40,212 nt of DNA from a virus, in the IMG/VR virus record IMGVR_UViG_3300040801_003093, positions 1 through 40,212 of that record; one strand, given 5' to 3'. A program made the position numbers and the translations under genes. Shown piece by piece: positions 15,389-39,588 of the stretch. Under the pieces are notes generated by a model, which was given only the letters and a program-made list of their open reading frames with translations, was not told the origin of the DNA and made no database searches. The stretch's first letter is position 1; each line of letters opens with the position of its first letter.

Positions 15389-15919
15389 TCACGCGGGCTC
15401 GGGGTCAAGCTCTCGGATGCGGATCGTGGTCGTGACGACGAACCGCTCGCGCGGCGTGAGCGCGATCGTGCCGCGCGTGAGGCTGTGCCGCCGGTAGGCG
15501 GGGTTGATGTTCTCGATGACGATCCCCGCGCTCGCGTCGGCGAGGACGCCGACGTGCCCGACGTAGACGCCGTGCGCGTTCGGAGCTGCGCGCCAGTTGA
15601 AGAGAAGGTCGCCGTCCTCCTCGAGCTCGCCGGTCGGGACGGCGAGGTCCGCGTTTCGCATCGACCGCTCGAGGTCGCGGGCCCACCAGGCGGACGCGGG
15701 CGGGCCGGGCTCCCGCTCGACGCGCTCCGTCCCGAAGCGGGTGTAGAAGCCCCACGGGGGGAGCTCGAGGCCGATCTCGACGATGCGGCGGACGAAGGCG
15801 AGGCAGAGGCCGCTCCGCTGCGACAGGTCGACATCTCCGGCTTTCACCTCGAGGCGGCCCATTGCGACGTGTCGCGCGGCCCGCGCGATCAGGACTCCAG
15901 GGCGCTCGCTGGACGTCAC
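15389..15919 (-). CDS. NlpC/P60-like cysteine peptidase or amidase, probable endolysin (176 aa)
   Basis: Papain-fold peptidoglycan hydrolase features: a Cys in SGLCLAFVRR (C39) at the start of a helix, a strand with GDLLFNW (103-109), then a His in GHVGV (H122) and a polar third residue in IENINP (E136/N137). Order and spacing fit NlpC/P60 or CHAP-type enzymes. No cell-wall-binding domain is seen. The GTG at 15919 overlaps the preceding tail gene (GTGA). It could act as the lysis enzyme or as a tail-tip hydrolase; the lysis genes that follow favour endolysin. Confidence 0.7.
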   Translation of the reverse strand: MTSSERPGVLIARAARHVAMGRLEVKAGDVDLSQRSGLCLAFVRRIVEIGLELPPWGFYTRFGTERVEREPGPPASAWWARDLERSMRNADLAVPTGELEEDGDLLFNWRAAPNAHGVYVGHVGVLADASAGIVIENINPAYRRHSLTRGTIALTPRERFVVTTTIRIRELDPEPA

Positions 15920-16635
15920 GAGCCGCTCCCCGTGCCGGGCGGGGGTGCGACGTAGACGTGCTTCTCCAGGCTCGCATCCCACGAGAGGAGGTAGCCGTCG
16001 AGCCGGCCGGTCGTGTCGACGTCTGCGACGTCCTCGAGGCGAGCTCGGAGCGTCGGCGCGGCGCCGGCCTCCGTGAGCGCGCTCCAGACTCCTCCGGAGA
16101 GGGTGACGGTCGCGACGAGGACCTCGTCGTCGGCGATCGTCGTGCCCTCCTTGAGCTGGAGCTCTCCGAAGGCGGTGCGGAGCTGGTACGTGAGGCTCTC
16201 GCCGGCCGTGGTCTCGACGACATTCCCGGCGCTGTCGCGGACCGGCACGTCGGGGCTAGTGAAGGCGGAGCTCGTTGTCACGGCGACGCCCTTGAGGATG
16301 ATCGCGTGCGTCCCGTCGGCAAAGCCGGTGCCGAGCTCGTCGAGGGCGAGGGTGACGCCGGCGCCTCCCGCGTCGACGAGGAGGGGTGCGAGCCCGTCGC
16401 TCGTGATGCCGAGGATCGGGCCGGTGAGCGTCGCGTCCGGGTCCGTGAGGGACAAGGTCGGGCGGAGGACGATGCCGCCGCTGGAGAAGAGCGCGAAGGC
16501 GAGGAGCTCGGCGCGACCGTCGGCAGCTCCGACGGCAGCGTCGACGAGCTGTCGCGTGATCCACCTCCGGCCGGCCGCGTCGACAGGCTGGTCCTCGACG
16601 CGGGTCGAGTATCGGTAGCTCGGGGTGCTGCTCAT
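15916..16635 (-). CDS. Tail-tip or fibre protein with Gly/Ser C-terminal tail (239 aa)
   Basis: A beta-rich structural protein (LLAFALFSSGGIVLRPTLS, GTHAIILKGVAVTTSS, EVLVATVTLSGGVWSAL) lying between the large hub-like protein and the hydrolase, so probably a tail-tip or adhesin component. The last residues are PPPGTGSGS, a tail shared in form with the major capsid, tail tube and two other tail proteins. SD AGGAGG precedes the ATG at 16635. No specific family is recognised. Confidence 0.65.
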   Translation of the reverse strand: MSSTPSYRYSTRVEDQPVDAAGRRWITRQLVDAAVGAADGRAELLAFALFSSGGIVLRPTLSLTDPDATLTGPILGITSDGLAPLLVDAGGAGVTLALDELGTGFADGTHAIILKGVAVTTSSAFTSPDVPVRDSAGNVVETTAGESLTYQLRTAFGELQLKEGTTIADDEVLVATVTLSGGVWSALTEAGAAPTLRARLEDVADVDTTGRLDGYLLSWDASLEKHVYVAPPPGTGSGS

Positions 16636-16643
16636 GCTGCCTC

Positions 16644-18974
16644 CTAGTCGGCGTCGAGGAAGTACGTCAAGCCGTAGATTCCGGCGGTCGCCTCGCTGGT
16701 CTCGTCGTCGGTCGCTGCGGCGGGCGTGCCCCCGCCGGAGGCGAGGTCGTACAGGTAGACGAGGTCGAGGCGTCGACCGGCGGAGACGGCGTCGTAGCTC
16801 CGGTCGTCACGGTACGCGTACCGCTCGAGGACGGCGCTCACGCCGATCGGGAGGAGGAGCTCTCGCCCGAGGTCGCCGGGCGTGATCTCGCTCGCCTCCG
16901 TGAGCTCGAGCCCGACGTACCGGGCGCGGGGTCGCATGTTGAACCGAACGATCGCCTCGGTCACGTCGAGGAGGTCCTGCTCGGTCACGCGGAAGAAGGG
17001 CACGTCAATCCGGGGGCCCTCGCGAACGCCGTAGAGAGCCTGCGACGTCTGGACGAGCTCTCCGCCGGCCTCCTCGTCGTACGTCACCTCGAGCTGGACG
17101 CCGGTCTCGCCGTAGACGCTGCCGGTCGCGGTGAAGGTGAGGACGTGCCCGAGGTAGGGGCGGGTGAGGAACACATTGTCGCTCTGCGTCCCGTAGGACA
17201 CGATGGCGGTGATGAGGCCGGGGACGCCGTTCGCATTCCCGTAGGCGAAGCGGACGGTCGCGACGTCGCCGTACGTGAGCGTCACCTCGCCGGAGAGAGT
17301 GAAGGTGACGTCCTCGACGTCGCCGGGCCGGAGGGTGACGGTGCCGGCCTCCTCGAGCCCGCTGTTCACCTCGTCGCTGCCGCCGCTCGTCCTCGACTGT
17401 CGGAGGAGGTACGTGTACTCGACGTCGATTCGGTCGCCGATGATGAGGGGCTCGCCGTCCTCGTCGACGAACGGCTGGAAGCTCCAGTTGGTGACGAGAG
17501 CGGCGCCGGGCGGCTCGTACGTCGTAGCGCCGACCGTGATGCCGAGGGTCGCGAGGAGCGCGGTGTCCTCGACGAAGTCGATCTCCTCGTAGCGTGCCGT
17601 CTGCCGGTTGATGACGCGACTGCCGTCGTAGACGGGCTCGGGCAGAGGGAGCTTGAGCTCGCTCGCGTCGACGGTGCGGCGGAGAACGCCGAGCTCGGAC
17701 AGGCCGTAGCCGTCGAGGGTGAGGGCGTGCGCCCAATACCGGGTGTCGCCGAAGAGCCCGACGTCGGCGCTGGTCGTCGCGGTGATTACCGTGATCTCGA
17801 TGCTGCCGCCGGTCGCGCCGGGCCGGCTCCATTCCAGCTCGTACGTCGCTTCGGCGTAGATCTCGCCGCCGAACCAGGGCGTGACCTGCCTCGTGAAGCG
17901 GGCGGGCGTGTTCGGCTCCAGCTCGAGCGCGACCTCGGTCCGGGTGCCGCGGTACGTCGCGAGGTCGAAGCCGGACCGGGTGTAGACGCTGGACGTCGTG
18001 CTCGGCAGGATCGTCACGAGCGCGGACACCTCGATTGCGGCGCCGTCGAAGGCAGGGTCGACCGTCCAGCTGCCGGCGGACACGTCGGTCGTGCGGCCGG
18101 CAGCTCCGATGCTGGAGAGGGGCGCGTCGGGGCCGGGCCCGTAGAAGTAGGCGGGCTCGAGGATGGTCGCGTCGCGGTCTCTCTGAACCGCCCACGGGGG
18201 CGGGATGATGACGACGTCTCCGTCCGCGTCGACGCTCACTCCGTAGCCGACGAAGATCGCTCGGAACTCCTCGAGGATCGTCTGGAGACTCCGCTCGCGG
18301 TCCTCGGGCTGCCGGAGGTAGATCCGGTCGGTCGTGAGGGTCCGGGTGTAGCGCCCGTCGTCGTCCTCGACGAAGAGGACGAGGGGCGGGACCGGCTTCG
18401 CGGAGAACTCGGGAAAGAGCTCCGTCCATTCGTCGAACAGGTATTGAAGGACCTCCTGCGCGGTCGCGGTCGACGTGCCGATCGCGTCGAGCGTCGTCGC
18501 GTAGACGCTCGGCGGGAACATGCGAGAGAGGGCAGCGAGGCGCGTCTCGTACGCGAGCGGCTGCTCGTAGATCGGGCTCCCGCCTTGGTCCTCGATCGCG
18601 CGGAGGCGAGCGATCGTGTCGAGCGGTCGGAGCATGGTCGGGTACAGCACGCTCGTGCCGAGCGTGACCTCGTTGATGCGGGGCACCGTCTCCTCTGCCG
18701 AGACGTCCGCCTGCGGCGTGCCGACGAGCGTCCGGCCGAGGGTCACGTCGTACGAGCTCCGTATACGCTCCGGGAAGATCTCGTAGAGCGTGACGAGGTC
18801 GTACCACGCGAAGGAGGCCGCGTCCGGGTAGGACAGGACCGTCCCGGAGACGCTGCCGGAGAGGTACGCGTCCGAGTTGAGGCCGAGCCCGCCGAGCTCG
18901 ACGAGGGCTCCTGCCGCCTTCGTGGACGGCGGTGTGACGATCGCGGAGCTCTCGACGTCCTTCGGGTAGGCCAC
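16644..18974 (-). CDS. Large tail-hub/tip protein (776 aa)
   Basis: The largest of the genes after the tape measure, in the position of the hub or central tip protein of siphophages. It is beta-rich with many hydroxyl residues. The N-terminal third (about 1-260) contains helical parts (PRINEVTLG, ARLRAIEDQGG, LQTILEEFRAIFVGYG) as in hub domains that contact the tube, and the rest reads as barrel or Ig-like modules. The GTG at 18974 follows the previous stop by 9 bases with a poor SD. No enzymatic motif is visible. It may form the tip channel or bind receptors. Confidence 0.6.
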   Translation of the reverse strand: MAYPKDVESSAIVTPPSTKAAGALVELGGLGLNSDAYLSGSVSGTVLSYPDAASFAWYDLVTLYEIFPERIRSSYDVTLGRTLVGTPQADVSAEETVPRINEVTLGTSVLYPTMLRPLDTIARLRAIEDQGGSPIYEQPLAYETRLAALSRMFPPSVYATTLDAIGTSTATAQEVLQYLFDEWTELFPEFSAKPVPPLVLFVEDDDGRYTRTLTTDRIYLRQPEDRERSLQTILEEFRAIFVGYGVSVDADGDVVIIPPPWAVQRDRDATILEPAYFYGPGPDAPLSSIGAAGRTTDVSAGSWTVDPAFDGAAIEVSALVTILPSTTSSVYTRSGFDLATYRGTRTEVALELEPNTPARFTRQVTPWFGGEIYAEATYELEWSRPGATGGSIEITVITATTSADVGLFGDTRYWAHALTLDGYGLSELGVLRRTVDASELKLPLPEPVYDGSRVINRQTARYEEIDFVEDTALLATLGITVGATTYEPPGAALVTNWSFQPFVDEDGEPLIIGDRIDVEYTYLLRQSRTSGGSDEVNSGLEEAGTVTLRPGDVEDVTFTLSGEVTLTYGDVATVRFAYGNANGVPGLITAIVSYGTQSDNVFLTRPYLGHVLTFTATGSVYGETGVQLEVTYDEEAGGELVQTSQALYGVREGPRIDVPFFRVTEQDLLDVTEAIVRFNMRPRARYVGLELTEASEITPGDLGRELLLPIGVSAVLERYAYRDDRSYDAVSAGRRLDLVYLYDLASGGGTPAAATDDETSEATAGIYGLTYFLDAD

Positions 18975-18983
18975 GGCTCGAGC

Positions 18984-19241
18984 CTAGCTGCCGACGCTCT
19001 TCGAGGTGATCTTCACGCGGATCCGGTCGAGCTTCGCGGTCGGGACGATCGTCCCGCCAAAGGTGACGAGCTCGGGCGTGATGACGAGATCGCCTTCCTC
19101 GAGGAGTAGCGCGCGGGCGTCCGCCTCGCTGAACGCGTGATAGTCCTTCCCATAGAAGGTTCGCTCTCCCGCGTCGATCTGCTCATCGCGATCTTCCCGC
19201 TCGAAGATGACCTTTACCGTGTGTCGAGTCGAGTCTGTCAT
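18984..19241 (-). CDS. Small tail-region protein (85 aa)
   Basis: Beta-rich small protein (HTVKVIFERED, GDLVITPELVTFGGTIV, LDRIRVKITSKS) with one charged helix (SEADARALLLEEG). It ends KSVGS, a weak echo of the Gly/Ser tails on other virion proteins. Its ATG at 19241 overlaps the previous stop by one base (TAATG). Its place suggests a minor tail component; base composition is less GC-rich than the rest of the genome. Confidence 0.6.
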   Translation of the reverse strand: MTDSTRHTVKVIFEREDRDEQIDAGERTFYGKDYHAFSEADARALLLEEGDLVITPELVTFGGTIVPTAKLDRIRVKITSKSVGS

Positions 19242-20347
19242 TAGCTACCGGAGCCTCCTGCCGCGCGATCCCAACTGTGTCGGAATCCGAGAGAGAGCGT
19301 GTGCGTCGAGAGCTTCTCGAACGTCGTCGGGTCAAGGAGCTGAATCGTCACGCCATCCCCGAACTGATAGGTCGAGATTTTCGCGTTGAGCCAGTCGAAG
19401 CCGTGGAAGATTCCGTTCAGGCTGCTCACGGGGATGTCGTCGATCGTGATGTCCCGGTATCTCGTGCCCGCGACGTACGTCGAGAAGGTGTAGAGCGACT
19501 GATTGAACGTGTACGGGCCGTTCGTCGTGCTGCCCGGACGCTCGACGGTCGTCGGGAGGGAGAAGTCGACCGTGCGGCCCTTGAGGTAGTAGTCCTCTCC
19601 ATCGTCGGCAACGATGAACGGCTCGAGTGTCGTTCCGGACGTTCCGTAGCCGGTATAGCTCACGAAACCGATCTCGACGTCGTACGGGGTCGTCGAGATG
19701 AGCGTGTTCGTCGCGTCGCGCTCCTCGATCGTCAACGTATCGAGAATCCCGTCCCGCGGTAGGTCTGCCGTGAGCTCGTGGTCGACCTGCAGGATCTTCC
19801 CCGAGAGCATCGAGATCGTGACGGGATCCCCGAGCTCGTCTCGGAAGAGCTCTCGAATGTTGAGCGATCCCGCGCTGAGGCGCCGGAAGCCGTACTCGGT
19901 GAGATTCCGGTTCGCCGTAAGCGTGACGCGCTTGCTGACGCGGTTCAGTCGCGTGATGATCGTCGATCCGACCGTCCGCGACGTTTCGGCATTGTCCCCG
20001 TTCGTCGTCCCTTCCTCGACCTCCGTATCGAGAGCGGAGTCTGTAAAGGCCGGCTCGCTCGAGCCTGTACCGACGACGAGGCGTGACCGCCAGCTGCTCC
20101 AGTACGTCGACTCGACGAGATCGTCGAGGCCGACGTCAGTGATGAGGTTCGGCTGCCACGCGCTCTCGTGCTGCCGGCGGGCGACGTCTCCGTGCCGGTC
20201 GAGGACGTCGACGAGCGCCGGCGTCTCTCCGTCCGGCTCGTAGACCTTCCATCTCATGCGCCCGCGGAGCCGTGAGGGAACGGGGAATACGAGCCCTGTC
20301 CGCTTCTCCCGGTCGGAGCGTCGAGGTCGAGGAACGTGAATCATCAT
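19241..20347 (-). CDS. Tail adhesin-like protein with Gly/Ser C-terminal tail (368 aa)
   Basis: A beta-rich protein with many Thr/Ser/Asn and Tyr, typical of tail appendages: after a basic N-terminus (MMIHVPRPRRSDREKR) come IITRLNRVSKRVTLTANRN and SYTGYGTSGTTLEP. It ends RAAGGSGS. Composition is lower in GC (about 60-62% in two 60-base windows) than the flanking genes, as expected of exchanged host-range modules. The ATG at 20347 overlaps the previous stop; a second ATG follows at once, and the SD AGGAGG spacing fits the second better. The receptor-binding role is inferred from position and composition. Confidence 0.6.
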   Translation of the reverse strand: MMIHVPRPRRSDREKRTGLVFPVPSRLRGRMRWKVYEPDGETPALVDVLDRHGDVARRQHESAWQPNLITDVGLDDLVESTYWSSWRSRLVVGTGSSEPAFTDSALDTEVEEGTTNGDNAETSRTVGSTIITRLNRVSKRVTLTANRNLTEYGFRRLSAGSLNIRELFRDELGDPVTISMLSGKILQVDHELTADLPRDGILDTLTIEERDATNTLISTTPYDVEIGFVSYTGYGTSGTTLEPFIVADDGEDYYLKGRTVDFSLPTTVERPGSTTNGPYTFNQSLYTFSTYVAGTRYRDITIDDIPVSSLNGIFHGFDWLNAKISTYQFGDGVTIQLLDPTTFEKLSTHTLSLGFRHSWDRAAGGSGS

Positions 20348-21402
20348 GCCTCCTTGTGAACGGCGGTCGCGGGAGTCGAGAAGCTCGCGTCGAGCTCGTC
20401 GGCGCTGCCGGGGTCGCGGACGAGCGTGTAGACGTGCTGCCACACATTACCGGGCTCCGACGAGAGGCTCGCGTCGAGCTCGTCGACGCTCCCGTCGTCC
20501 CGCCCGAGAATCCCGATGTGCTGCCAAGCGAGGGAAGGCTTCGAGACGACGCTCGCGTCGAGCTCGACGGGCACTTCGTCGAGGTATTCACCCAGGAGCC
20601 CGACCGTCACGGCGGCGAGGGGGGCGACGGACGCGGTGAGCTCTCCCTCGTCGAGCGGGTAGACGTAGAGAAGCTCGTCGTGCGTAGCGTCCGCGATCGT
20701 CATCCCCGCGAGGAGCCCATTCTCGTCGAAGTACGGGTAGATCTCGGAGAGGAGGACGGAGATCTCCCCCGCGCTCCGGAGCGGATCGCCTGCCTCGTCG
20801 CTGACGAGGAGCTGGTATTGAAGCGGCAGTCGAGAAGCGCGGTCGAGGACGACGGGCGTCCCGTAGTCGTGAAGCTCGTACTCGACGGAGTAGACGTCCC
20901 TCTGGACCCGGCAAAGGACGCGGGTCCGATCGGTCGAGAGGTAGAAGAGGAGGACGTCGCTCGTCCCGACGTTATACGCCCAGGTCGCATCGAACGCGAC
21001 GACGGGGTCGACGCCGGCGATCGTCACATTCTGAATGTAGCTCGACGCGTCGGGATCCCATCGCGTGAGGTAGACGGTCGCATCCTCCTCGTACGCGATG
21101 ATCGCTCTCGCGCTCTGGTCGAACGCGATCGAGAAGCGCCTCCGCGTCTCCGGTTGCGTCTCCCCGAAGATCGGGGGGAGGCCGGCCGTCACCTGCGTCC
21201 AGGTCGCGGCGTCGACCTCGCGGCGGTAGAGCTGGAGCTCGCCGTCGGTCGTGACGACGAGCGCGTAGACGCGACCGATGAGGTCCTCGAGCTCGTTGTC
21301 GCGCGGGTCTCCGATCTCCTGCGGGCCGAGGGCGAGGAAGAGCTCCGCGAAGCTGTACTCCTCCGTCCCGCGGGTCGAGTGCCGAGGCGTCGGCAGGCTC
21401 AC
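20344..21402 (-). CDS. Tail-tip protein with C-terminal 28-residue repeats (352 aa)
   Basis: Beta-rich, with strand patterns such as LIGRVYALVVTTDGELQLY and ARAIIAYEEDATVYLTRWD spaced like beta-propeller or carbohydrate-binding blades. Near the C-terminus two 28-residue units begin ELDASVVSKPSLAWQH and ELDASLSSEPGNVWQH, and a third ELDAS starts a partial copy. Repeats of this type occur in tail proteins that display or trimerise. The GTG at 21402 overlaps the preceding stop (GTGA). Function is inferred from position only. Confidence 0.6.
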   Translation of the reverse strand: MSLPTPRHSTRGTEEYSFAELFLALGPQEIGDPRDNELEDLIGRVYALVVTTDGELQLYRREVDAATWTQVTAGLPPIFGETQPETRRRFSIAFDQSARAIIAYEEDATVYLTRWDPDASSYIQNVTIAGVDPVVAFDATWAYNVGTSDVLLFYLSTDRTRVLCRVQRDVYSVEYELHDYGTPVVLDRASRLPLQYQLLVSDEAGDPLRSAGEISVLLSEIYPYFDENGLLAGMTIADATHDELLYVYPLDEGELTASVAPLAAVTVGLLGEYLDEVPVELDASVVSKPSLAWQHIGILGRDDGSVDELDASLSSEPGNVWQHVYTLVRDPGSADELDASFSTPATAVHKEA

Positions 21403-21869
21403 GAGCCGCTCCCGGTCGTCGTGACGACGTCGATCGAGTCGACGACGTTCCCCGCGGGCCCGTAGAGCGCGCTGCCCTGCCGCATCGGGTAGAAGAGGAG
21501 CTCGAGCTCCTGGACCTTCGGTCCGCCGGGCCCGACGCTGTTTCGCAGGGCGACGAGGAGACCGTCGGCCTCGAGGTCGTCACCGTCGTCGAGGAGAGTG
21601 ATCGTGACGATCCGTCCGGTGGAGAGCGTCTGCGCGAAGCTCGCGCCGTTAAAGGCGCGGCTCGGCCGGCCGTTGAAGAGGTCGGCGGAGGGCACGAGGA
21701 CCGTCTCGAGCTGCTTCGCGATGGCGCGAGCTCGGGACGTCGTGAACAGGAGGCGGACGGGCTGGTCCTGGTCGATCCTGCCTTCGATCGCTTGAGGACG
21801 CTCGGTCGCGTCGGGCCCGAAGGTCGCGACGCTCGTGCCGTCGAGGAGAGAGACGGTGAGGTAGCTCAC
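21399..21869 (-). CDS. Minor tail protein, possibly distal tail, with Gly/Ser tail (156 aa)
   Basis: First gene after the tape measure, the usual place of the distal tail (Dit) or tube-tip protein. It is beta-rich (YLTVSLLDGTSVATFG, RIVTITLLDDGDDLEADG, VQELELLFYPMRQG) with a helical insert (ARAIAKQLETVLV). It ends DVVTTTGSGS, matching the tails of the capsid and tail tube proteins. The stop overlaps the next GTG start. No family motif was recognised, so Dit is a positional guess. Confidence 0.6.
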   Translation of the reverse strand: MSYLTVSLLDGTSVATFGPDATERPQAIEGRIDQDQPVRLLFTTSRARAIAKQLETVLVPSADLFNGRPSRAFNGASFAQTLSTGRIVTITLLDDGDDLEADGLLVALRNSVGPGGPKVQELELLFYPMRQGSALYGPAGNVVDSIDVVTTTGSGS

Positions 21870-24800
21870 AAGGGGCTCCCGAGGGCAGCTCGGCGGAGGC
21901 CGGCGTAGTCGATCTGTCGGAGGACGTCCGCGACGATCGCGCGCGTCCGGCGGTCATTGTCCGCCCGGACTTGCGGGTCGACGTTCGTCGAGTCGTAGTT
22001 GTTCGTCTGCGAGACGCTCACGCGAACGACGAAGCTCGGGGTGCGGTTTGCGCGCCTCGACTCGGCAGCTTGCCGCTCCTCCTCCGCGCGGTCGCGTCCA
22101 CCCCCGAAGAGGCCGGCGATGCCGGAGAAGAGCCCGCCGATGATCGGGAGGGCGGCGCTGATGATGCCGAGCGTGCCGGCCGTGCCGGCGGAGAGGAGGC
22201 CCGCTGCGGGCCCGAAGTTCGCGAGGGCGCCGGTGACGCTCGAGGCTGCCTGGAAGGTCTGCGAGATGGCGGACACGAAGTCGCCGCTCTGGACAGCCTG
22301 GAGAATGCCGACGGTGAACCCGGCGGCAGCGTCGGCCAGGTCCAGCTTGAGGCGAGCTCCAGCGTCGATCAGGTCGTCCGACAGGGTGTCGCCGGCCTCG
22401 CCGACGTCCTCGGCGAGGTCCTCGCCGGGGCTCGACGTCGGGCGAGGCCCGCCCTGCTGCGCGGACAGGCGAGCTCGGAGGAGGGGGTCCGTCTCGATCC
22501 GGTTGACGCGCGCGAACGTGTCGATGAGACGCTCGGTCTCCTCACGGGCCCGCTCGTCCGCGGCAGCACGCTCGTTCGCCGCCTCGACGGTCGCGTTGTA
22601 CGCGTCGACCTCCGCCTGCGTCGGCTCGCGACCTCCTCCTTGCTGCGCGGAGAGGCGAGCTGCGACGAGCGGGTCGCTGGTGATGGTCTCGAGGCGCGCG
22701 AAGGACGTGACGAGCCGGTCGGTCTCCTCACGAGCTCGCGCGTCCGCCGCGGCCCGCTCATTCGCTGCGACCGCGCTCGCGTTCGCTGCCGCAATCTCCT
22801 CGTCCGTGTAGCGGCGTCCTCCGCCCTGCTGCGCCTGGAGCTGCGCGGCGACGAGCGGGTTGAGGGCGCGCTCGAGAGCTGCGGCGGCAGCGCGTGCCTC
22901 CGCCTCGAACGACGGGCGGGAGGTCGGGGGCGTGCCGTCCGGCGTCGCGGGGAGCGTGCCGGGCAGTCCTCCGCCCTGGAGTAGCCCTGGAGCGAGGCTC
23001 GGGTCGCGGGTCGCAATGCGGATGCCCTGCTCCAGCTCGGCGCGGCGCGTCCGGAGGTATTCCAGCTCGTCCTCGCCGACGGTGTCGACGAAGTCCGTAA
23101 GGAGCTCGCGGATCGCGTCGTCGATCAGGCGGACGCGGTCCTCGGCGCTCTCAATCGCAGCTTCCGGGGTGCCCTCGAAGTCGGCGATGCGGACGAGGGC
23201 AGCTCCGCGGGCGGCAAGCTCGTCGAATACGGTGCGGACGGTCCGCTCCTCGACGTCGGGCGGAGTGAAGCCGGGGCCCGTCCGTCCGGGCGGGGGGCGC
23301 GTCTCTCCGGGCGGCGGCGCTGTCGGGCTCGCGAGCTGCGCCTCGAGCTCTGCGCGGCGCTCGAGGAGGTCGGCGAGGCCGCTGTCGAGCGCCTCTCGAG
23401 AGCGGGCGATCGTGTCGAACACGACGCTCTGGACGACGTCGTCGGCGGGAACGCGAGCTCGGCCCTGGTCGTCGCGGAGGGCGTCCGTGAGCGCCTCGAG
23501 CGTCACGCGGCCCTGATCGTCGATCGTGAAGGTGAGGTCGCCGGGCCCGTAGCCGGCCTGGAGTAGGGCGCGGTCGAGGAGCTCCTGCGAGCCGGCGAGG
23601 CCCTGCCCTGCTCTGGAGAGCCCGCCGACGCCCTCTGCCTCGAGCGTCGCGATCTGCGCGTTGACGCTCGCGAGCTCGGCCTCGGCAGCGATGCGGTCGA
23701 AGCTGCCGACGAGCCGGTCGAACTCGGCGCGCGTGTCGGCGCTCACCTCTCCCGCCTCGGCGATCTTGTCGATGAGGCGCTGGACGGCGGGAACGGCGCT
23801 CACGTCGACGCGGTCCTTGACGCGCTCCAGCGCGGAGACGGCGGAGCTCGCGTCGCTGCCGGCGAGAGCCGTGCCGGCCTTCCCGACGGCGTCCTCGAGG
23901 CTGTCACGGCGTCCAGCGAAGGCGAGGGCGAGCCCGCCGACCGCGATTGCTCCGGCTGCGGCCCAACCGGCAGGCCCGGCAGCGAGGAGGGTCGCCGTCC
24001 GGATTGCTCGGAGGCCGGCGACGACCTTCGGCGCCACCGTGACGATCTGTCCGAGCGCGAGGAGGAGCGGGCCGGCTGCTGCGGCGATGCCGCCGAAGGC
24101 GACGATGGCGACCTGCGCCGCGTCGGGCAGGTCCGCGATCGTGTCGACGAAGCCGGTGAGGCTGGAGACGGCAGCGGTCGCGATGGGGAGAAGGACCTCT
24201 CCGAGCTCGACGGCCAGGTCGTTGATTCCGGAGCGGAGGCGTCGCGTCTGATTCGCGAAGCTCTCGCTCGTGCGGGCGTAGTCTCCGATCGCGTTCGCGC
24301 TCTGCTCTTGCGCGATGGCGAGGGTCGCGTACGCGCGCGCCTGCGTCTCTGTCGCGTCGACGAGCTCTCCGCTCGCCTCGAGCTCCTCGATCTTCGCGGT
24401 GACGAGGTCCTGCCGGATCGCGATGCCGAGGCTCTTCGCTGCCTCCGTCTCGCCGAGGAGCGCCTTCGTGAGGGCTGCCGAGGCGCCCTCGGCGCCGCCC
24501 TGGAAGTTGGTGAAGCTCGCGAGGTCGACAGCCAGCTCGTTCACCTGCGTCGACAGGTCGAGGGCAGCCTCGCCGGTGAAGCCGAAGCCGGTGAGGAGGT
24601 CGCCCGTGTCGCCGAGGAGCCGGCGTGCGTTCGTGCTGGAGAGGCCGAAGGACTCGGAGAGCCGGTCGGCGGACCGCTCGGCCTCGTCGCCGACGTCGCG
24701 GAAGACGGTCGCGAACTTGGACGCGGTCTCCTCCGCGTCGCTCGCTGCCTTGATGAAGCCGGCGGACAGGGCGACGAGGGGCGTCGTGACGCCGACCGTG

Positions 24801-24967
24801 AGGGCTGTCCCGACGCCGCGGAGGCGGCGCCCGAGCTGCTCGAAGTCGCGGCCGGCGCGAGACGTGAACGCCTTCACCTCGCGCTCGGCCTGCGACAGGC
24901 CCGTCCGGAGGCCGGACTGCTCGAGGCGGGTCCGGAGGACGGCGGTGCCGAGGTTCGGGTTCATCAT
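21866..24967 (-). CDS. Tape measure protein (1033 aa)
   Basis: Sets tail length and is ejected with the DNA. The family pattern is clear: N-terminal coiled coil (LRTRLEQSGLRTGLSQAERE), a conserved-type region (ALSAGFIKAASDAEETASKF, TNARRLLGDTGDLLTGFGF), a hydrophobic block at about 284-350 and another near the C-terminus (about 925-970, LLSAGTAGTLGIISAALPI). At about 0.15 nm per residue it predicts a tail near 155 nm, which suits a siphovirus. Residues about 703-845 hold two 62-residue repeats plus a partial third. ATG at 24967 with GGAGG upstream; a second ATG follows directly. Confidence 0.93.
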   Translation of the reverse strand: MMNPNLGTAVLRTRLEQSGLRTGLSQAEREVKAFTSRAGRDFEQLGRRLRGVGTALTVGVTTPLVALSAGFIKAASDAEETASKFATVFRDVGDEAERSADRLSESFGLSSTNARRLLGDTGDLLTGFGFTGEAALDLSTQVNELAVDLASFTNFQGGAEGASAALTKALLGETEAAKSLGIAIRQDLVTAKIEELEASGELVDATETQARAYATLAIAQEQSANAIGDYARTSESFANQTRRLRSGINDLAVELGEVLLPIATAAVSSLTGFVDTIADLPDAAQVAIVAFGGIAAAAGPLLLALGQIVTVAPKVVAGLRAIRTATLLAAGPAGWAAAGAIAVGGLALAFAGRRDSLEDAVGKAGTALAGSDASSAVSALERVKDRVDVSAVPAVQRLIDKIAEAGEVSADTRAEFDRLVGSFDRIAAEAELASVNAQIATLEAEGVGGLSRAGQGLAGSQELLDRALLQAGYGPGDLTFTIDDQGRVTLEALTDALRDDQGRARVPADDVVQSVVFDTIARSREALDSGLADLLERRAELEAQLASPTAPPPGETRPPPGRTGPGFTPPDVEERTVRTVFDELAARGAALVRIADFEGTPEAAIESAEDRVRLIDDAIRELLTDFVDTVGEDELEYLRTRRAELEQGIRIATRDPSLAPGLLQGGGLPGTLPATPDGTPPTSRPSFEAEARAAAAALERALNPLVAAQLQAQQGGGRRYTDEEIAAANASAVAANERAAADARAREETDRLVTSFARLETITSDPLVAARLSAQQGGGREPTQAEVDAYNATVEAANERAAADERAREETERLIDTFARVNRIETDPLLRARLSAQQGGPRPTSSPGEDLAEDVGEAGDTLSDDLIDAGARLKLDLADAAAGFTVGILQAVQSGDFVSAISQTFQAASSVTGALANFGPAAGLLSAGTAGTLGIISAALPIIGGLFSGIAGLFGGGRDRAEEERQAAESRRANRTPSFVVRVSVSQTNNYDSTNVDPQVRADNDRRTRAIVADVLRQIDYAGLRRAALGSPL
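22433..22861 (-). repeat. Internal repeats in the tape measure gene
   Basis: Two 186-bp units (22676-22861 and 22490-22675) and a partial third (from 22489 down). Each encodes (N/D)PLVAA(Q/R)L(Q/S)AQQGGGR at its start and ANERAAAD(A/E)RAREET(D/E)RL in its middle. Gain or loss of a unit would change tail length by roughly 9 nm. Confidence 0.8.
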
Positions 24968-25009
24968 CGCAGAGAGCCTCCGTCGACAGTATGAACGACG
25001 AGCGGGGTG

Positions 25010-25432
25010 CTAGGTCGTGGCGATCCTCTCGAGCCGGTCGAAGTCGAGGATCGCGAGAGCTCCGACGGGGAGCTGGTGAGCGTGCTCGAGCGCGTCTCGA
25101 GCGGAGCGTGCCGTCCAGACGCCGGGGCCCGTCTCGAGGCGGGCCCACGGGGGGAGGCGCTCCTCGGGCGTGAAGAGGCGGCTCGGGGGGAGCGGCGGAT
25201 TGTCGGCCTCGGAGTCTGCGGACGGGTCCGGCTTGCCGCCGACGACGTTCAGAAGGGCAGCCTCGAGGGACGCGCTGCCCCAACCTCGGCGCGCCTCAAT
25301 AAGCGGAATCCAGCGGAGGTAGTAGACGAGCTGTCGCTGCGAGAGAGCCTCGATCACTCGAGGCTCCCATCCGTACGCGTGAGCGAGGAGCGCGAGCTCC
25401 GGTCCGGCTTCCTCGCTCGCGCGGTCGCTCAT
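25010..25432 (-). CDS. Tail assembly chaperone candidate, downstream member (140 aa)
   Basis: Lies between the upstream chaperone candidate and the tape measure, the place of the gpT-like chaperone. The helical N-terminus (LALLAHAYGWEPRVIEALSQ) with RQLVYYLRWIPLIEARRG resembles the small alpha-helical proteins found here. The ATG at 25432 overlaps the upstream stop (ATGA). I see no slippery heptamer at the junction, so coupling by re-initiation seems more likely than a frameshift. Confidence 0.6.
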   Translation of the reverse strand: MSDRASEEAGPELALLAHAYGWEPRVIEALSQRQLVYYLRWIPLIEARRGWGSASLEAALLNVVGGKPDPSADSEADNPPLPPSRLFTPEERLPPWARLETGPGVWTARSARDALEHAHQLPVGALAILDFDRLERIATT

Positions 25433-25782
25433 GAGCTCTTCGAGGCTGCCCGGCGGGCCGCGCGGTTCGGAGCTCCGGCCGGCGCCTCTCCGCGAAAGAG
25501 GATGCCGACGACCGCGTCGATCGCGGCGCGGGTGAGGTGCGTCTCGATCCAGGCGTCGTCGATCGCGTCCGGGTCGTCCGTCCTCGCCTGGAGCGCGCGG
25601 ACGAGGGTCGTCGCCTGCTCCTCCGGCTTCATCTCGTCGAAGGCGAGGGCGACGGTCCAGCCGATCGGTCGGCCCTCGAAGTCGATGCCGCCGAGCGTGA
25701 AGTCGGGCGTGCGGGTCTCTAGGATCGCGTCCAGGTCGAGGTGCGGCCGGTCGCTGCTAGTCGTGCGCTTCTTCGTCGTCAT
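25429..25782 (-). CDS. Tail assembly chaperone candidate, upstream member (117 aa)
   Basis: Starts MTTKKRTTSSDRPHLDLDAI, then PDFTLGGIDFEGRPIGWTVA and a helical part (EEQATTLVRALQARTDDPD, HLTRAAIDAVVGILF). The length, order and position two genes after the tail tube fit a gpG-like tail assembly chaperone. The ATG at 25782 has SD GGAAGGG upstream; longer in-frame starts lie within the preceding gene. It overlaps that gene by 26 bases. Confidence 0.65.
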   Translation of the reverse strand: MTTKKRTTSSDRPHLDLDAILETRTPDFTLGGIDFEGRPIGWTVALAFDEMKPEEQATTLVRALQARTDDPDAIDDAWIETHLTRAAIDAVVGILFRGEAPAGAPNRAARRAASKSS

Positions 25783-26047
25783 GTAGCGGGTTCCCTTCCT
25801 CGTCGAGCGCCAGGATCGGCCGTCCCGTGACGGCGCGCCAAGCGCGAGCATTCCCGAGCTCCTCGGGGAGCTCGAGGACTCCGAGCTCTTCGCCGGTGTC
25901 GGGGTTCATCATGACGTACAGGCCGGGAGCGAGTCCAGGCGCGACGAGGAGCGTGTCGACGGGGTAGACGACGCCCTCGGGACGCGAGGGCGTCCCGAGG
26001 GCGGTCACGACGGGTTCCCCGAGCCGGTGAGCTCGGGAGACGATCAC
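25757..26047 (-). CDS. Small tail-region hypothetical protein (96 aa)
   Basis: Unrecognised. It reads as a mostly beta protein (EPVVTALGTPS, GVVYPVDTLLVAPGLAPGLYV) with an acidic C-terminus (LHDDEEAHD). The GTG at 26047 overlaps the tail tube stop (GTGA). A 13-bp perfect inverted repeat (25972-26003) lies inside its first 26 codons. It could be a minor tail or decoration protein. Confidence 0.6.
   Translation of the reverse strand: MIVSRAHRLGEPVVTALGTPSRPEGVVYPVDTLLVAPGLAPGLYVMMNPDTGEELGVLELPEELGNARAWRAVTGRPILALDEEGNPLHDDEEAHD
25972..26003 (-). promoter_or_regulatory. 13-bp perfect hairpin inside coding sequence
   Basis: CGCCCTCGGGACG and CGTCCCGAGGGCG flank a 6-base loop. It lies about 40 bases after the tail tube stop, within codons of the next gene, where it could lower transcription or stabilise the upstream message. 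Confidence 0.55.
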
Positions 26048-26790
26048 GAGCCGGAGCTCGAGAGGACGGTCCGCTTCGGCTTGCCCTGCCCCTGCCACGT
26101 CCAGGACGCGTCGAGGACGCCGGACGCGGGCGGGTCGACAGAGAAGTTGCGGACGCGAGCTCGGCCCTCGTACGCGCGGGCAGCCTCGTTGTCCTCGTCG
26201 GCGTAGACGACCTTGATCCATACCTCGCGCTCCTCGAGGTTCGCGATCTCGGCCTGCTGGAGAGCGTGGTCGCCGGCCTTGAAACGTCCGGAGCGGGGCA
26301 CGCTCCAGCCCTTCGAGGTCGCCTCGTCCTCCGCCCACGTCGTCCCGGAGTACGCGGTCTCGTAGCTCGCGGGCGTGAGCGTGTTCGTGTTGTCGTTCGT
26401 CGCGAAGCCGGCGCTCTCCGTACCGACGACGCGGTGCAGCTGATCCCAAGTCGCGGTATGCGAGGCGGACAGCTCGGCAGGAATGCCGGGCTCGTCGCCG
26501 GCGACCGCGTCGACGGGCACGCTCGCGCCGCCGCTGCCGATGCTGGTGTCCTCTGTCACGCGGACGAGGACCTCGTCGCCGCCGTCCGTGAAGGACAGGA
26601 TCAGGTTCTTGCGGAGCGTGATGGTCGTCGGGCACGACAGGGTCGCCGACGTCGCGCCGGCAGCGGCGACGCTGTCGACGCTAATCGTCACGTCGGCAGG
26701 CTCGGAGGCGTTGACTCCAGCGGCGAACGCGTCGCTCTGGAACACCTCGCTGTACTTGCCGCGCGCGAAGGTGAGAAGCTCATTGCTCAT
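26044..26790 (-). CDS. Major tail tube protein with Gly/Ser tail (248 aa)
   Basis: Probable subunit of the tail tube: it follows the tail terminator gene and precedes the chaperones and tape measure. It has beta-rich stretches (ATLSCPTTITLRKNLILSF, EVLVRVTEDTSIGSG, EREVWIKVVYADED, GRARVRNFSVD) and the length expected of tube proteins (200-250 aa). The last residues are KRTVLSSSGS, one of the Gly/Ser tails. The SD AGGAGG precedes the ATG at 26790. Confidence 0.78.
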   Translation of the reverse strand: MSNELLTFARGKYSEVFQSDAFAAGVNASEPADVTISVDSVAAAGATSATLSCPTTITLRKNLILSFTDGGDEVLVRVTEDTSIGSGGASVPVDAVAGDEPGIPAELSASHTATWDQLHRVVGTESAGFATNDNTNTLTPASYETAYSGTTWAEDEATSKGWSVPRSGRFKAGDHALQQAEIANLEEREVWIKVVYADEDNEAARAYEGRARVRNFSVDPPASGVLDASWTWQGQGKPKRTVLSSSGS

Positions 26791-26803
26791 TCGGAGGGAC
26801 CTC

Positions 26804-27181
26804 CTACGGGGTCACGGTCACGAGGACCTGATTGCGGATTCCGAGCCGCTCGTTCGCAGCGATCGGCGTCGGACTCGACGTGCGGAACGCGGTGACGACC
26901 CGCTCCGTCGCTGATTGTAGACGACCGGCGGGCGTGCCGTCATGCTCGACGAGGTAGACGAGCCAGGACCGGGACAGGGTGAGCTCGTGCCGGTAGCCGG
27001 GCTCGGACTCGATGCTCGGCACGCTCCCGACGTGCGCTTCGAGGCCCTCGACGGTCACGCTGTCGGGCAGCGGACCGTGCGAGATGGCGGGCCGGGTCGT
27101 GCCGAGGTCCGGGTCGCGGTAGACGCCGACGAGGTCTCCGAGGAGCTCGCGGAGCTGGAGCGTGAGCTCGGGGCCGGTCAT
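26804..27181 (-). CDS. Tail terminator/completion protein (125 aa)
   Basis: Position just before the tail tube gene and the mixed alpha/beta pattern fit a tail terminator (gpU-like): helix ELTLQLRELLGDLVGVY, strand SVTVEGLEAHVGSV, strand ELTLSRSWLVYLVEHDG, helix QSATERVVTAF and a last strand NQVLVTVTP. The ATG at 27181 overlaps the upstream stop (ATGA). The in-frame extension upstream is out-of-frame reading of the neighbour. Confidence 0.65.
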   Translation of the reverse strand: MTGPELTLQLRELLGDLVGVYRDPDLGTTRPAISHGPLPDSVTVEGLEAHVGSVPSIESEPGYRHELTLSRSWLVYLVEHDGTPAGRLQSATERVVTAFRTSSPTPIAANERLGIRNQVLVTVTP

Positions 27182-27588
27182 GCGGTGCCTCCTCTGCGGG
27201 TGAAGGCGTTGGCGAAGAGTCGAGGGAGCCGTCGGAGGGGCTCGTCGTAGATGTTTCGGCCGGGGTACGTCTTGGTGCCGAGCCGGTAGCCGAGGAGGAC
27301 GGGGATCGCGTACGCGACGTCGACCGTATGAAGCCATTCCGTGAGGTCGCCGTCGGGCCGGGCGAAGATGCTGGAGCGGAGCCGGCCGCTGTCGACGACG
27401 TCGCGGGGGCTAGGGTCGTTCGGCCAATCCCACTTGCGGAGGGTCGCCTCTCGCTTTGCGAGGTTCTCCATCGCGAGGTTCGCGTCGAGGAATGCCTCGC
27501 GGTGCTGCTGGAGTATCTCGTCGACGCGGATTGTCACGGTCGCGTCGAGCCCGAGGTCGACCCGTCCGGACGGGAGGCGGCTGCTCAT
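27178..27588 (-). CDS. Neck / HK97 gp10-like protein (136 aa)
   Basis: Layout of a gp10-type head-tail protein: N-terminal strand and long helix (VTIRVDEILQQHREAFLDAN), then VDSGRLRSSIFARPDG, a motif common in this family (a short helix followed by a strand), and VDVAYAIPVLLGYRLG near the C-terminus, ending with a basic helix. The ATG at 27588 overlaps the upstream stop. It probably connects the head-completion ring to the tail. Confidence 0.68.
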   Translation of the reverse strand: MSSRLPSGRVDLGLDATVTIRVDEILQQHREAFLDANLAMENLAKREATLRKWDWPNDPSPRDVVDSGRLRSSIFARPDGDLTEWLHTVDVAYAIPVLLGYRLGTKTYPGRNIYDEPLRRLPRLFANAFTRRGGTA

Positions 27589-27983
27589 GCTCCAGGTCTC
27601 CAGACGCCGTACAGGACCTCGCCGAGCGCGTCGACGATCGCGTCGAGCGTCTCGACGGGCCGGGCGACGATGCGTAGGACGCCGTCTCTGCCGCCGTACG
27701 TGAGGTCAAACTCCGTGCCGGGCTGGACGTTCGCGGGGGCGACGGTCGGCTCGAGGCAGGTGAGGATCAGGACGACCTCGCCGGCGCTCGCGCCGTACTG
27801 CTCGCGGAGGCTGTCCCGGCTCGCGGCGGAGGCTGGAGCGTCGGCGATGACGCGGAGCGTCTGCTCGACGGTGTCGTAGAGCGGGTCGCCGGCCGCGTCT
27901 GTCTCGGGCGGGTCGCGCTCGACGCGGACGTCGCGGGTGAGGGTGACGTCCTGAAAGACGCCGTCGAAGGCGGAGGGAGCCAC
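27585..27983 (-). CDS. Head-tail stopper/connector protein (132 aa)
   Basis: Position between the adaptor-like and gp10-like genes and a beta-barrel-like pattern (VTLTRDVRVERD, TLRVIADAPAS, GEVVLILTCLEPTVA, EFDLTYGGRDGVLRIVA) suit a head-completion stopper. The GTG at 27983 follows the previous stop by 3 bases. Assignment rests on gene order and fold pattern. Confidence 0.55.
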   Translation of the reverse strand: MAPSAFDGVFQDVTLTRDVRVERDPPETDAAGDPLYDTVEQTLRVIADAPASAASRDSLREQYGASAGEVVLILTCLEPTVAPANVQPGTEFDLTYGGRDGVLRIVARPVETLDAIVDALGEVLYGVWRPGA

Positions 27984-27986
27984 GGG

Positions 27987-28337
27987 CTAGAAGCCGGCCT
28001 GGACGGTGTAGCCGCGCGCGGCGGGCCATGCGTCCGGGACGGTGAGCTCGTAGGTCTCGTCGAGGCGTGCCTGCTGCGCGAGGTAGCCGGCGACCGCGTC
28101 GCCGGGGTCGGCGTACTCGAGCTGCGCGCCGGTCGCGCCGCGGAGGGTGACGTACCGCTCCCATTGCGTCTCGAACAGGGCGGCGAGGACGACGTAGGGA
28201 CGAAAGTAGACGGTCTCGTCGCTGTCCTCGCCCTTCGACGCGTCGAGGAGTGCTTCGACCTCGTCACCGTCGGCAAACGGGGCTCGAGCGAGGACGAGAG
28301 CTTTCGTCTCCGTGAGGCTGGTGAAGTCGGTAGCCAT
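27987..28337 (-). CDS. Head-tail adaptor-like protein (116 aa)
   Basis: Helical small protein (SLTETKALVLARAP, DGDEVEALLDAS, FRPYVVLAALFETQWERYV) at the place of the gp6/gp15-type adaptor that docks to the portal. The ending YELTVPDAWPAARGYTVQAGF may be the arm that inserts between subunits. ATG at 28337 with AGGAG upstream. Confidence 0.55.
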   Translation of the reverse strand: MATDFTSLTETKALVLARAPFADGDEVEALLDASKGEDSDETVYFRPYVVLAALFETQWERYVTLRGATGAQLEYADPGDAVAGYLAQQARLDETYELTVPDAWPAARGYTVQAGF

Positions 28338-28348
28338 CGGTCGGTCTC

Positions 28349-29320
28349 CTATCCCGCGACGACGTGCTCGAGGATCGCGGCGACCGCGCGGTCGGTCGCT
28401 CGGCCGTCGACGTGAGCATACGCGACGGCGACGGCAGCTCGTCGAGCGGCTCGGTCACGCTCGGGGTCCTCGAGGGCGCGCTGGACGGCGGGCACGAGGC
28501 TCTCGTCGGTCCATGCGACGTGCGGCCCAAGCTCGCTCGCTTCCCAGAAGCGGAGGCCGTGCTCGACGTCGCGGCGGTAGATGCGGTCGTTGAGGACGAC
28601 GACGGGCCGGCCGGTGCTCGCGAACTCGTACATGGTCGAGCTGTTGTCGCAGACGTAGACGCTCGCCGTCTCGAGGACGCGGTCGAAGGTCGGCTCGTAC
28701 GGCAGCTCGTGCTTTGCGTAGACGGGGACAACGTCGCGGCGGAGGCGGGGGTGCGCGTGCATGACGACGCGGACGTCATTCCGTGCGGCGAGGGGGAGGA
28801 CGCGAGGCAGGAAGCGGCGCCACGCGCTGCGCGTTTCGGGGACGACCTTGCAATCCCAATGGAAGGAGACGACGACGGTCGGGGGGCTCGAGAGGGTCGG
28901 CTGGAGCGTGCCGTCATGCCACACGTCCAGCTTCGGGACGCCGATCTCGACGACGGGAGCTCTACCCTCGAGCGTGCCGCTCTCCTCGTACGCTCGGCGG
29001 GCTGCGGGGCCGGGCACGAGGGCGAGGACGACGCCGTACCGGTTCCTCCCGCCGGCGTAGCTCGTGTGCCGGAGGAGCTGCCCGTCGAGCCCGCGGTACG
29101 TCTGCCCGGCGCCGTGCTCCATCAGGATCACCGGCCGGCCTGCCTGCCGGGCAGCGTTGAGGTCGCCGAAGCTGGAGACGAGGGTCGGCCGGTCGCTCGG
29201 CGTCACGAGCCGCTTCCGGGACGAGAAGAAGGCTCCCCGACAGTCGTCGGGGAGCCGCTCGTAGACGGGCCGAATGTGCGAGGCGAAGTGCTCCTCGGAG
29301 GCGAGGGCGTCGACCTTCAC
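28349..29320 (-). CDS. TagF-like glycosyl/glycerophosphotransferase in the head cassette (323 aa)
   Basis: Resembles CDP-glycerol glycerophosphotransferase or related GT-B enzymes: MEHGAGQTYRG in the N-terminal part, VVSFHWDCK, VVMHAHPRLRRD, and the donor-site stretch YVCDNSSTMYEFASTGRPVV, whose Asn-Ser-Ser and later Glu/Gly-Pro positions match the family. These enzymes transfer glycerol-phosphate or sugars from nucleotide donors. Its place among head genes is unusual and suggests that virion proteins are the acceptor. The GTG at 29320 (MKVDALASEEHF) is chosen because the longer reading overlaps the previous gene in another frame. SD is weak. Confidence 0.8.
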   Translation of the reverse strand: MKVDALASEEHFASHIRPVYERLPDDCRGAFFSSRKRLVTPSDRPTLVSSFGDLNAARQAGRPVILMEHGAGQTYRGLDGQLLRHTSYAGGRNRYGVVLALVPGPAARRAYEESGTLEGRAPVVEIGVPKLDVWHDGTLQPTLSSPPTVVVSFHWDCKVVPETRSAWRRFLPRVLPLAARNDVRVVMHAHPRLRRDVVPVYAKHELPYEPTFDRVLETASVYVCDNSSTMYEFASTGRPVVVLNDRIYRRDVEHGLRFWEASELGPHVAWTDESLVPAVQRALEDPERDRAARRAAVAVAYAHVDGRATDRAVAAILEHVVAG

Positions 29321-29324
29321 GGGC

Positions 29325-29729
29325 TCACGCGTCGGGCGTGAGGAGCTCGCGAATCTCGGCCTTCGTCGCTCGGGCGGGCACGTCGACGTCGAGCTCGTCG
29401 GCGAGAGCGCGGAGCTCGGCAGCGGTGAGCTGCTCGAGCTCGTCGAGGGGAGGCAGGTCACGCGGGGCGCCTGCCTCGTCGTCGGTCGGGAGGTCCTGGA
29501 CAGTCTCGCCTTCCAGGTGCTCTGTCGGCGTCGCCGGCTGGAGCTCGTCGGGCAGCTGCTCGCCGGGCCAGGGGAGGAACCCTCGAGAGAGGAGACTCAC
29601 GATCGCGTCCGGGTCGTCGACGTCGGCGGTCGCGACAGGTGTCGGTCGACCTTCGAGCGCCTTCGGCGAGAACTCGATCCCGGTCACGCGGTCTCTCTTC
29701 CGGTCGTAGTGCGGGTGGTAGAGCCTCAC
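29325..29729 (-). CDS. Protein with C-terminal SAP/Rho-N-like helix pair (134 aa)
   Basis: The N-terminal part reads as a short barrel (RVTGIEFSPKALEGR, VATADVDDPDAIVSLL); an acidic, Pro-rich linker follows; and the last 35 residues (LEQLTAAELRALADELDVDV, ATKAEIRELL) match the helix-extended-loop-helix pattern of SAP or Rho N-terminal domains, which bind nucleic acid. Such domains occur in phage proteins encoded just after the major capsid gene. The GTG at 29729 has SD AGGAGG. A head-associated or head-completion role is inferred. Confidence 0.72.
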   Translation of the reverse strand: MRLYHPHYDRKRDRVTGIEFSPKALEGRPTPVATADVDDPDAIVSLLSRGFLPWPGEQLPDELQPATPTEHLEGETVQDLPTDDEAGAPRDLPPLDELEQLTAAELRALADELDVDVPARATKAEIRELLTPDA

Positions 29730-29764
29730 GTCGAGGGTCCTCCTAGCGGGTGAGGGGGCGGCGG

Positions 29765-30790
29765 TTAGCTACCGCTGCCGGTCGAGGTGGAGAGGCCGGT
29801 GATCTTGCCGTGCAGCCATTCGGCGCCGTAGTCGAGGCCGAGCTGCCCGTAGATCTGCCAATCCTCGCTCGAGCCGACCTTCGCGAGGCGCTCGACGAGG
29901 ATCGTCTCGCCCTTCACGGGCAGGTAGCGTCCGCGGAGCGGCTCGGGGTTGACGAGGAGGAAGGTGTCGGTCGGGACGTCGAGGTCGTAGGCGCCCTGCG
30001 AGGGGACGCGGATGACGCCGAACGGCGTGTAGATCTCGCGCGTCATGAGCCCGCCGACCATGCGGTCCGTGCCCTGCCGGAACTGCGTCTCGTACGCGTC
30101 GTTGAGAGCGGCGAGCTGGACGGGGTGCATGATCGCGACGAGGCCGGTCTCCGGCTGGACGCCGCTGTTCTCGATCATCTCGCGGTAGAGCTGCTCGATG
30201 AGCGCCTTCGACAGGGCGGCGCCGCCGGCAGCGACCGCGTTGGTCGTCACGGCGGACACGATGCCGCGGCTCTTCACCGCCGAGCTCGTCGGGTCCGCGG
30301 GGTTCGCGAACGTCCCGTTGAGAGCCGAGTAGTTGAAGTCGCGAGCGATCTTGCGGAGCTGCATCGCGAGCTGGCGCTGGTCGAGGCCGCTGTACTCGAA
30401 CGGATCGACGCCGCCCTGCGAGAGGACGCCGTCCGGGTCCATCCGGCCGACCTCCGAGCCGGCGAGGTAGGACACCTTCACCGTCTCGTGAAACAGCTGG
30501 ACGACCTGCTTGTCCTGGTCCGGCGTGTAGGTCCGCGCGGTCGGCGCGGCAGCGCCTTCCAGGATCGCGGGCTGCGACGGGGTCGGCAGGTCGTAGTCGA
30601 CGGTGAGCGGGAACTCGCGCTGGACGGTCGGCGTCCAGCCGTTGCCGACGATCGTGCCCTCGCCCGGCTGTCCGGGCTGGTAGCCGCCGACAAGGCGGAG
30701 GATCAGGTTCGGGCGCTCTCCGAAGAGGCGGAGGACGCCGAGGAGGCCCTTCGTGTTCTGGGTGGTCGTGCTGGCGGCAGAGCTAGCCAT
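29765..30790 (-). CDS. Major capsid protein, SU10/HK97-fold (341 aa)
   Basis: Capsid subunit following the scaffold gene. The pattern is that of SU10-like capsids: VQLFHETVKVSYLAGSEVGR, QLAMQLRKIARDFNYSALNG, LVAIMHPVQLAALNDAY, MTREIYTPFGVIRV and near the end WQIYGQLGLDYGAEWLHGKI. No N-terminal delta domain and no cleavage signal are evident, which fits a separate scaffold. The protein ends LSTSTGSGS, one of the Gly/Ser tails. ATG at 30790 with SD GGAG 6 bases upstream. Should be the most abundant virion protein. Confidence 0.9.
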   Translation of the reverse strand: MASSAASTTTQNTKGLLGVLRLFGERPNLILRLVGGYQPGQPGEGTIVGNGWTPTVQREFPLTVDYDLPTPSQPAILEGAAAPTARTYTPDQDKQVVQLFHETVKVSYLAGSEVGRMDPDGVLSQGGVDPFEYSGLDQRQLAMQLRKIARDFNYSALNGTFANPADPTSSAVKSRGIVSAVTTNAVAAGGAALSKALIEQLYREMIENSGVQPETGLVAIMHPVQLAALNDAYETQFRQGTDRMVGGLMTREIYTPFGVIRVPSQGAYDLDVPTDTFLLVNPEPLRGRYLPVKGETILVERLAKVGSSEDWQIYGQLGLDYGAEWLHGKITGLSTSTGSGS

Positions 30791-31686: not shown

Positions 31687-31959
31687 CTACGGGACCGCGT
31701 CGGGCGGGACGTCCGCCTCTCCAGGGTCGGGCTCGACGTCCTCGACGACGATCAGGACGCCGGTCGAGCTGGCGAGCTCGCGAAGCCGATTCGCGAGAGC
31801 GAGCGTGATGCTCGGCACGTCGCCGCCCCCGCGCTCGATCGGGACGAGCTCCGTGAGGAGGTCGGCGTACGCTCGGCCCTGTTTCGTAAAGCCGTGCCAA
31901 CGACTGCCGCCCTTCCAGACGACCGTCTCGCCTTCTACTGTCGCGCGGATTCGGCTCAT
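31687..31959 (-). CDS. Small hypothetical protein after MuF (90 aa)
   Basis: Unrecognised. It reads as a beta hairpin (IRATVEGETVVWKGGSRWHG), a helix (GRAYADLLTELVPIE), another helix (LALANRLRELASSTG) and a strand (VLIVVEDVEPD), then an acidic tail. Its ATG overlaps the MuF stop (ATGA), so the two are coupled. An immunity or chaperone protein for the MuF peptidase domain is possible from position, and a minor head protein is equally so. Confidence 0.6.
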   Translation of the reverse strand: MSRIRATVEGETVVWKGGSRWHGFTKQGRAYADLLTELVPIERGGGDVPSITLALANRLRELASSTGVLIVVEDVEPDPGEADVPPDAVP

Positions 31960-39504: not shown

Positions 39505-39588
39505 GCCGACCTCCTGGGTCACGTAGCGCGCCCGGCGCTGCCCGCATGGTAGCGGATCGCGTCGGGCGCGGCGTGTCGGAGGGCGGTG

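Follow-up and report, generated by a model that had tools for sequence, protein, structure and literature searches.

PEP-CTERM with exosortase and GlyGly-CTERM with rhombosortase are known pairs of a C-terminal protein tag and an enzyme. In phages, virion glycosylation has to our knowledge been demonstrated only in a few mycobacteriophages, and Freeman et al. (2023; doi 10.1016/j.chom.2023.05.028) reportedly described phage-encoded transferases and virion glycosylation in the mycobacteriophages Che8, Corndog, and Myrna. As cited in PMC12619734, the C termini of mycobacteriophage capsid and tail tube bear glycans. In our comparison, most phages with experimentally studied glycosyltransferases have a C-terminal Gly-Ser (GS). 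The capsid and tube of Che8 end in KTGS and SDGS, with no GS end on the remaining late proteins; the corresponding ends are PEGS and GDGS in Cornie and PQGS and FGGS in Gattaca, and Firecracker has a GS-ending capsid and a tube ending in GDS. Among genomes with a Che8-type capsid, 49 of 50 records carry a transferase similar to Corndog gp38, and the sole record without it is a 19-kb fragment whose capsid ends in GT; because most of these genomes are near-identical, they amount to about four independent cases. TM4, Giles, Bernal13, and Mendokysei have neither a gp38-like transferase nor the tag, Baka has several glycosyltransferases and zero GS ends, and the capsid of Myrna, a phage reported to be glycosylated, does not end in GS. 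Myrna gp98 (L016:5377-5922), encoded immediately before the capsid gene, has the C terminus AGGS.

The locus described here lies in a 40,212-bp stretch of viral DNA from IMG/VR, the whole of which was analyzed and is called the window below; a DNA similarity search of it against a phage collection returned no match to any record. Its capsid and tube share the C-terminal Gly-Ser with those of Che8, but the window differs in having a TagF-like enzyme and up to six tagged proteins. Comparison with Firecracker gp34-36 gave no match in the window, and hence no gp38/gp110-like or gp35/gp109-like transferase. Since the gp38-like enzyme is missing and a TagF-like one is present instead, we regard the window system as a variant, and not a member, of the mycobacteriophage type. 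The tagged genes and the two transferase genes are as follows.

29765..30790, minus strand: major capsid protein of the SU10_MCP type (PF17236, 8e-39; PHROG 1328 major head, 4e-30), ending in STSTGSGS, TAA stop
28349..29320, minus strand: TagF-like GT-B transferase of the head cassette, GTG start at 29320, the proposed initiating enzyme
26044..26790, minus strand: major tail (tube) protein (Phage_tail_2; PHROG 1407), ending in LSSSGS, TGA stop
21399..21869, minus strand: protein after the tape measure, ending in VTTTGSGS, TGA stop
19241..20347, minus strand: tail-fibre-like protein (PHROG 4176 tail fibre, 2e-31), ending in RAAGGSGS, TAA stop
18984..19241, minus strand: 85-aa tail-module protein, ending in SKSVGS, TAG stop
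15916..16635, minus strand: tail tip protein, ending in PPGTGSGS, TGA stop
6194..7792, minus strand: glycosyltransferase with GT2 and GT4 modules (PF13439, 1e-8; PF00535, 2e-4)

A sequence-only reading of this DNA had pointed out the six endings, all of which are present, and had described other late proteins as untailed; the portal, connectors, tape measure, and also the scaffold of the window indeed lack a GS end. It had taken a longer Gly/Ser and Ser/Thr stretch as the shared signature. A common ending exists, but its core is the terminal Gly-Ser, with GSGS in a subset and variable Ser/Thr upstream. In the window gene set, 6 of 59 genes have a GS end where 0.25 would be expected (p = 2e-7); a chance origin was rejected on these numbers. 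GSGS occurs four times in the window proteome, each time at a C terminus.

The nearest relative, about 60% identical, retains GS at 4/4 of the shared tailed proteins, while the residues before it diverge (window/relative, TSTGSGS/LPSGSGS, SSSGS/LASGS, and TTTGSGS/EDSGS). The relative's capsid ends in PSGSGS, its tail tube (67% to the window's) in LLASGS, and its post-tape-measure protein (50% to the window's) in DEDSGS. Homology between the tip proteins stops at residue 199, and the relative's version, which ends in VPTGSGS, is 61 residues longer; both share the final TGSGS. The predicted capsid structure was of poor quality. Elsewhere in the window, the MuF-like protein (31956-34109) has 717 aa compared with 330 aa in the relative, and its extra C-terminal part contains a HEIGHALE zinc-peptidase-like motif, resembling MuF proteins that carry an effector domain at the C terminus. 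Two small lipoprotein-like genes (13704-14099 and 14156-14632, the latter with a long Pro-Asp/Pro-Glu repeat) adjoin the presumed lysis region, and 37295-39522 is occupied by two neighboring DNA-methylase-like genes, of which the second also encodes a ParB_N domain.

The TagF-like gene was correctly placed in the head cassette by the sequence-only reading, but with an over-long start at 29461; the extra N terminus overlaps the upstream gene and is missing in relatives, which makes GTG 29320 the most likely start. The protein matches PF04464 at 7.6e-10 (38.7 bits, curated cut-off 22.1), although only over profile positions 225-366 of 367, that is, in its C-terminal half. Its AlphaFold (AF2) model has a GT-B fold with a mean pLDDT of 95. 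The nearest solved structures found with Foldseek are UDP-GlcNAc 2-epimerases, which match slightly better, followed by TarL and TagF, matches that are compatible with either a UDP-sugar or a CDP-alditol as donor; a fold search among viral proteins retrieved distant GT-B glycosyltransferases only. H69 and H190, candidates for the catalytic histidine pair of PF04464 enzymes, are invariant in 47 relatives. The enzyme resembles the PF04464 members TagF and TarL in its above-cut-off profile match and its fold, but differs from these and from UDP-GlcNAc 2-epimerase-like enzymes in being virus-borne and about 320 aa long, with 10-20% identity to the solved structures, and the family has conserved motifs of its own (MEHGxGQ, FHW, GHGHPR, DNSSTxYEFA, and HGLRFW).

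A check proposed by the sequence-only reading, whether other phages combine tails with transferases, gave a clearly positive answer. With genes called by a simple purpose-made caller, 62 non-redundant viral loci that carry the TagF-like gene have 95 GS ends among 1,226 genes, against an expectation of 5.8. As matched controls we took loci that have related capsids but lack the TagF-like gene and whose capsid has another ending; there the count is 12/965, so that the enrichment is about 7-fold (odds ratio 6.7, p = 7e-14). It is confined to this dipeptide: Ser ends other than GS are not enriched, nor are GA and GG. A scan of GS by position gave 111 of 1,366 genes at the exact end, 30 at offset 2 (corresponding to GSGS), and between 5 and 15 at the majority of the remaining offsets. 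At least one GS end is found in 41/62 loci and at least two in 31/62. The other 21 have none within the fetched stretch; some of these are fragments or have the gene in glycosyltransferase clusters distant from the capsid genes.

Capsid families served as controls; a single-sequence capsid search of viral contigs gave no matches, and alignment queries were required. In the HK97-type family, the non-redundant records with a length of at least 12 kb comprise 13 with tail and TagF-like gene, 14 with neither, 2 with the tail only, and 1 with the enzyme only, whose capsid ends in AAS. The tail-only record L144 carries GT2 genes, as does the shorter L135. In the SU10-type family, TagF-like genes occur solely alongside GS-tailed capsids, most of the larger tailed records without one carry GT2 genes, and the tail is associated with having either transferase (p = 0.006). 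Even in loci without a TagF-like gene, other proteins end in GS more often if the capsid does (23/259 versus 12/965); a GS-tailed capsid thus predicts GS on other proteins, and the tag behaves as if it belonged to the virion as a whole. The rule linking tag and transferase has exceptions in both directions. Tails in the absence of any transferase would speak against the link, and L217 and prophi91-3 have GS ends and no transferase that we could find; these are few cases against a strong overall association. The same data bear on the idea that a flexible Gly-Ser end, itself unmodified, protects abundant structural proteins against attack by C-terminal proteases or recognition as degrons. The tagged proteins are abundant and a short polar end would suit this purpose, but such a cap predicts neither the co-occurrence with a transferase nor the absence of the ending from similar transferase-free phages, and it leaves the strict Gly-Ser unexplained when other Ser ends, GA, and GG are not enriched. 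We consider it unlikely.

The tailed proteins belong to numerous families of capsids, tail tubes, and connectors (PHROGs and Pfam), and the tag therefore crosses unrelated folds. That the carriers are mainly virion proteins, of head and tail alike, would also be expected of an assembly or sorting tag, or of a contact with a maturation protease or scaffold common to virion proteins. Head and tail follow separate assembly routes, however, the portal, scaffold, and tape measure are untagged, and related transferase-free phages assemble with other endings, so that a role of this kind seems very unlikely.

The tag is spread across the whole TagF-like tree; hence a single lineage cannot explain it, and simple shared ancestry of the tails was rejected. 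With an alignment of nine relatives as query, the family was found in at least 103 viral contigs and in 2 contigs among 84,980 bacterial and archaeal genomes, and one of these two, 4.5 kb long and phage-like in appearance, also encodes a protein ending in TGSGS. Judged by sequence, this is a nearly virus-only GT-B family at the sensitivity of the scan, which relies on conserved peptides. Teichoic acid synthesis is the function of PF04464 members, and the enzyme might accordingly modify the host surface (a wall polymer, or for superinfection exclusion) and have nothing to do with the Gly-Ser tails. This reading fits poorly with the position of the gene among head genes in unrelated phages, its near absence from bacterial genomes, and its association with the tails in deep branches, and we regard it as highly improbable. 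Finally, although a GTG or ATG start overlaps some tails, the notion that ribosome-binding sites or stop/start overlaps with the next gene encode Gly-Ser can be dismissed, since the 95 tails of the 62 loci use Gly and Ser codons at background frequency and all three stop codons, which excludes a translation-signal or overlap artifact, and since the capsid and fibre genes (the latter called adhesin-like in the sequence-only reading, which had already made this point) stop at TAA with the Ser codon outside any overlap.

The TagF-like genes commonly have methyltransferases and glycosyltransferases as neighbors, and cluster O phages likewise have such a neighborhood (PMC4351075). Relatives of the Firecracker gp35/Che8 gp109 family, a partner glycosyltransferase, occur in about 17 TagF-like loci and are fused to the TagF-like domain itself in two of them. 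This family was dropped as a marker of the Che8-like system, being present in a minority of Che8-type genomes; the gp36/gp110 family is conserved. Other TagF-like fusions involve galactosyltransferase-like, DXD, or nucleotide-sugar glycosyltransferase domains; those to a galactosyltransferase-like or DXD glycosyltransferase lie at these positions.

L061:2756-4801
L066:9290-11389
L038:6069-7841

The early two-module glycosyltransferase of the window had been proposed as a second component. The gene contains both modules and is retained in the nearest relative at 53-54%, but the protein, in full length or part, is found in only 3/49 TagF-like-bearing records; we therefore no longer count it as a core part, and its role is unproven. 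It is possible that it acts as a chain-extending partner of the TagF-like enzyme. Gaia has GS ends on four proteins, namely the capsid, the tube, and two minor tail proteins, and its transferase candidate is a weak, Stealth-like one. Gaia gp170 (L265:9337-10110), unannotated and Stealth_CR2-like (E-value of 7e-4), adjoins a methyltransferase and is a candidate virion transferase.

Taken as a whole, the C-terminal Gly-Ser probably serves as the acceptor tag at which virion proteins are glycosylated, and the TagF-like enzyme would be the transferase that initiates the process. We hypothesize that, during synthesis of the head and tail proteins, the TagF-like transferase of the same head cassette would recognize the free x-Gly-Ser end of the capsid, the tube, and other tail proteins and, using a nucleotide donor of the host, attach a sugar, sugar-phosphate, or polyol-phosphate to the hydroxyl of the C-terminal Ser. 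Further glycosyltransferases and methyltransferases of the phage, here perhaps the GT2-GT4 protein, may then extend or decorate the first unit, and head and tail of the particle would become coated. We infer the acceptor atom, donor, chemistry, and order of steps, as well as the benefit, which may be shielding, masking, or stability. The initiating step is assigned to the TagF-like enzyme because it is the constant partner of the tags, and the transferred group would be either a sugar or an alditol- or sugar-phosphate. The sequence-only reading had proposed O-linked acceptors among the Ser/Thr residues of the tails. The link between tail and transferase supports it, but conservation is limited to the terminal Gly-Ser, which favors the last Ser as acceptor over the Ser/Thr residues upstream of it. 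More tentatively, the Gly-Ser C terminus may be a general and portable tag of phage particles that several unrelated transferase families recognize (TagF-like, GT25-like, GT2-like, and perhaps Stealth-like), with phosphate-linked priming by the TagF-like enzymes. We know of no description of the chemistry of phosphate-linked transfer on virions.

This kind of system is already known; the novelty lies in the common tag, in the family of the enzyme, and in the occurrence outside mycobacteriophages, and a literature search on C-terminal Ser motifs in phages found no paper. As in the PEP-CTERM and GlyGly-CTERM pairs, a short C-terminal motif on unrelated proteins tracks one enzyme family. Unlike in those pairs, the tag has two residues and no transmembrane segment, the proteins are cytoplasmic virion proteins, and the enzyme is a transferase and not a protease or sortase.

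With a signature of two residues, modified proteins and the phages that carry them would be predictable from sequence alone across many lineages. A nearly virus-only transferase family might glycosylate any protein ending in Gly-Ser and so provide glycoprotein tools. Such a coat may also bear on the persistence of phages and on their recognition by antibodies, the latter having been reported for mycobacteriophages.
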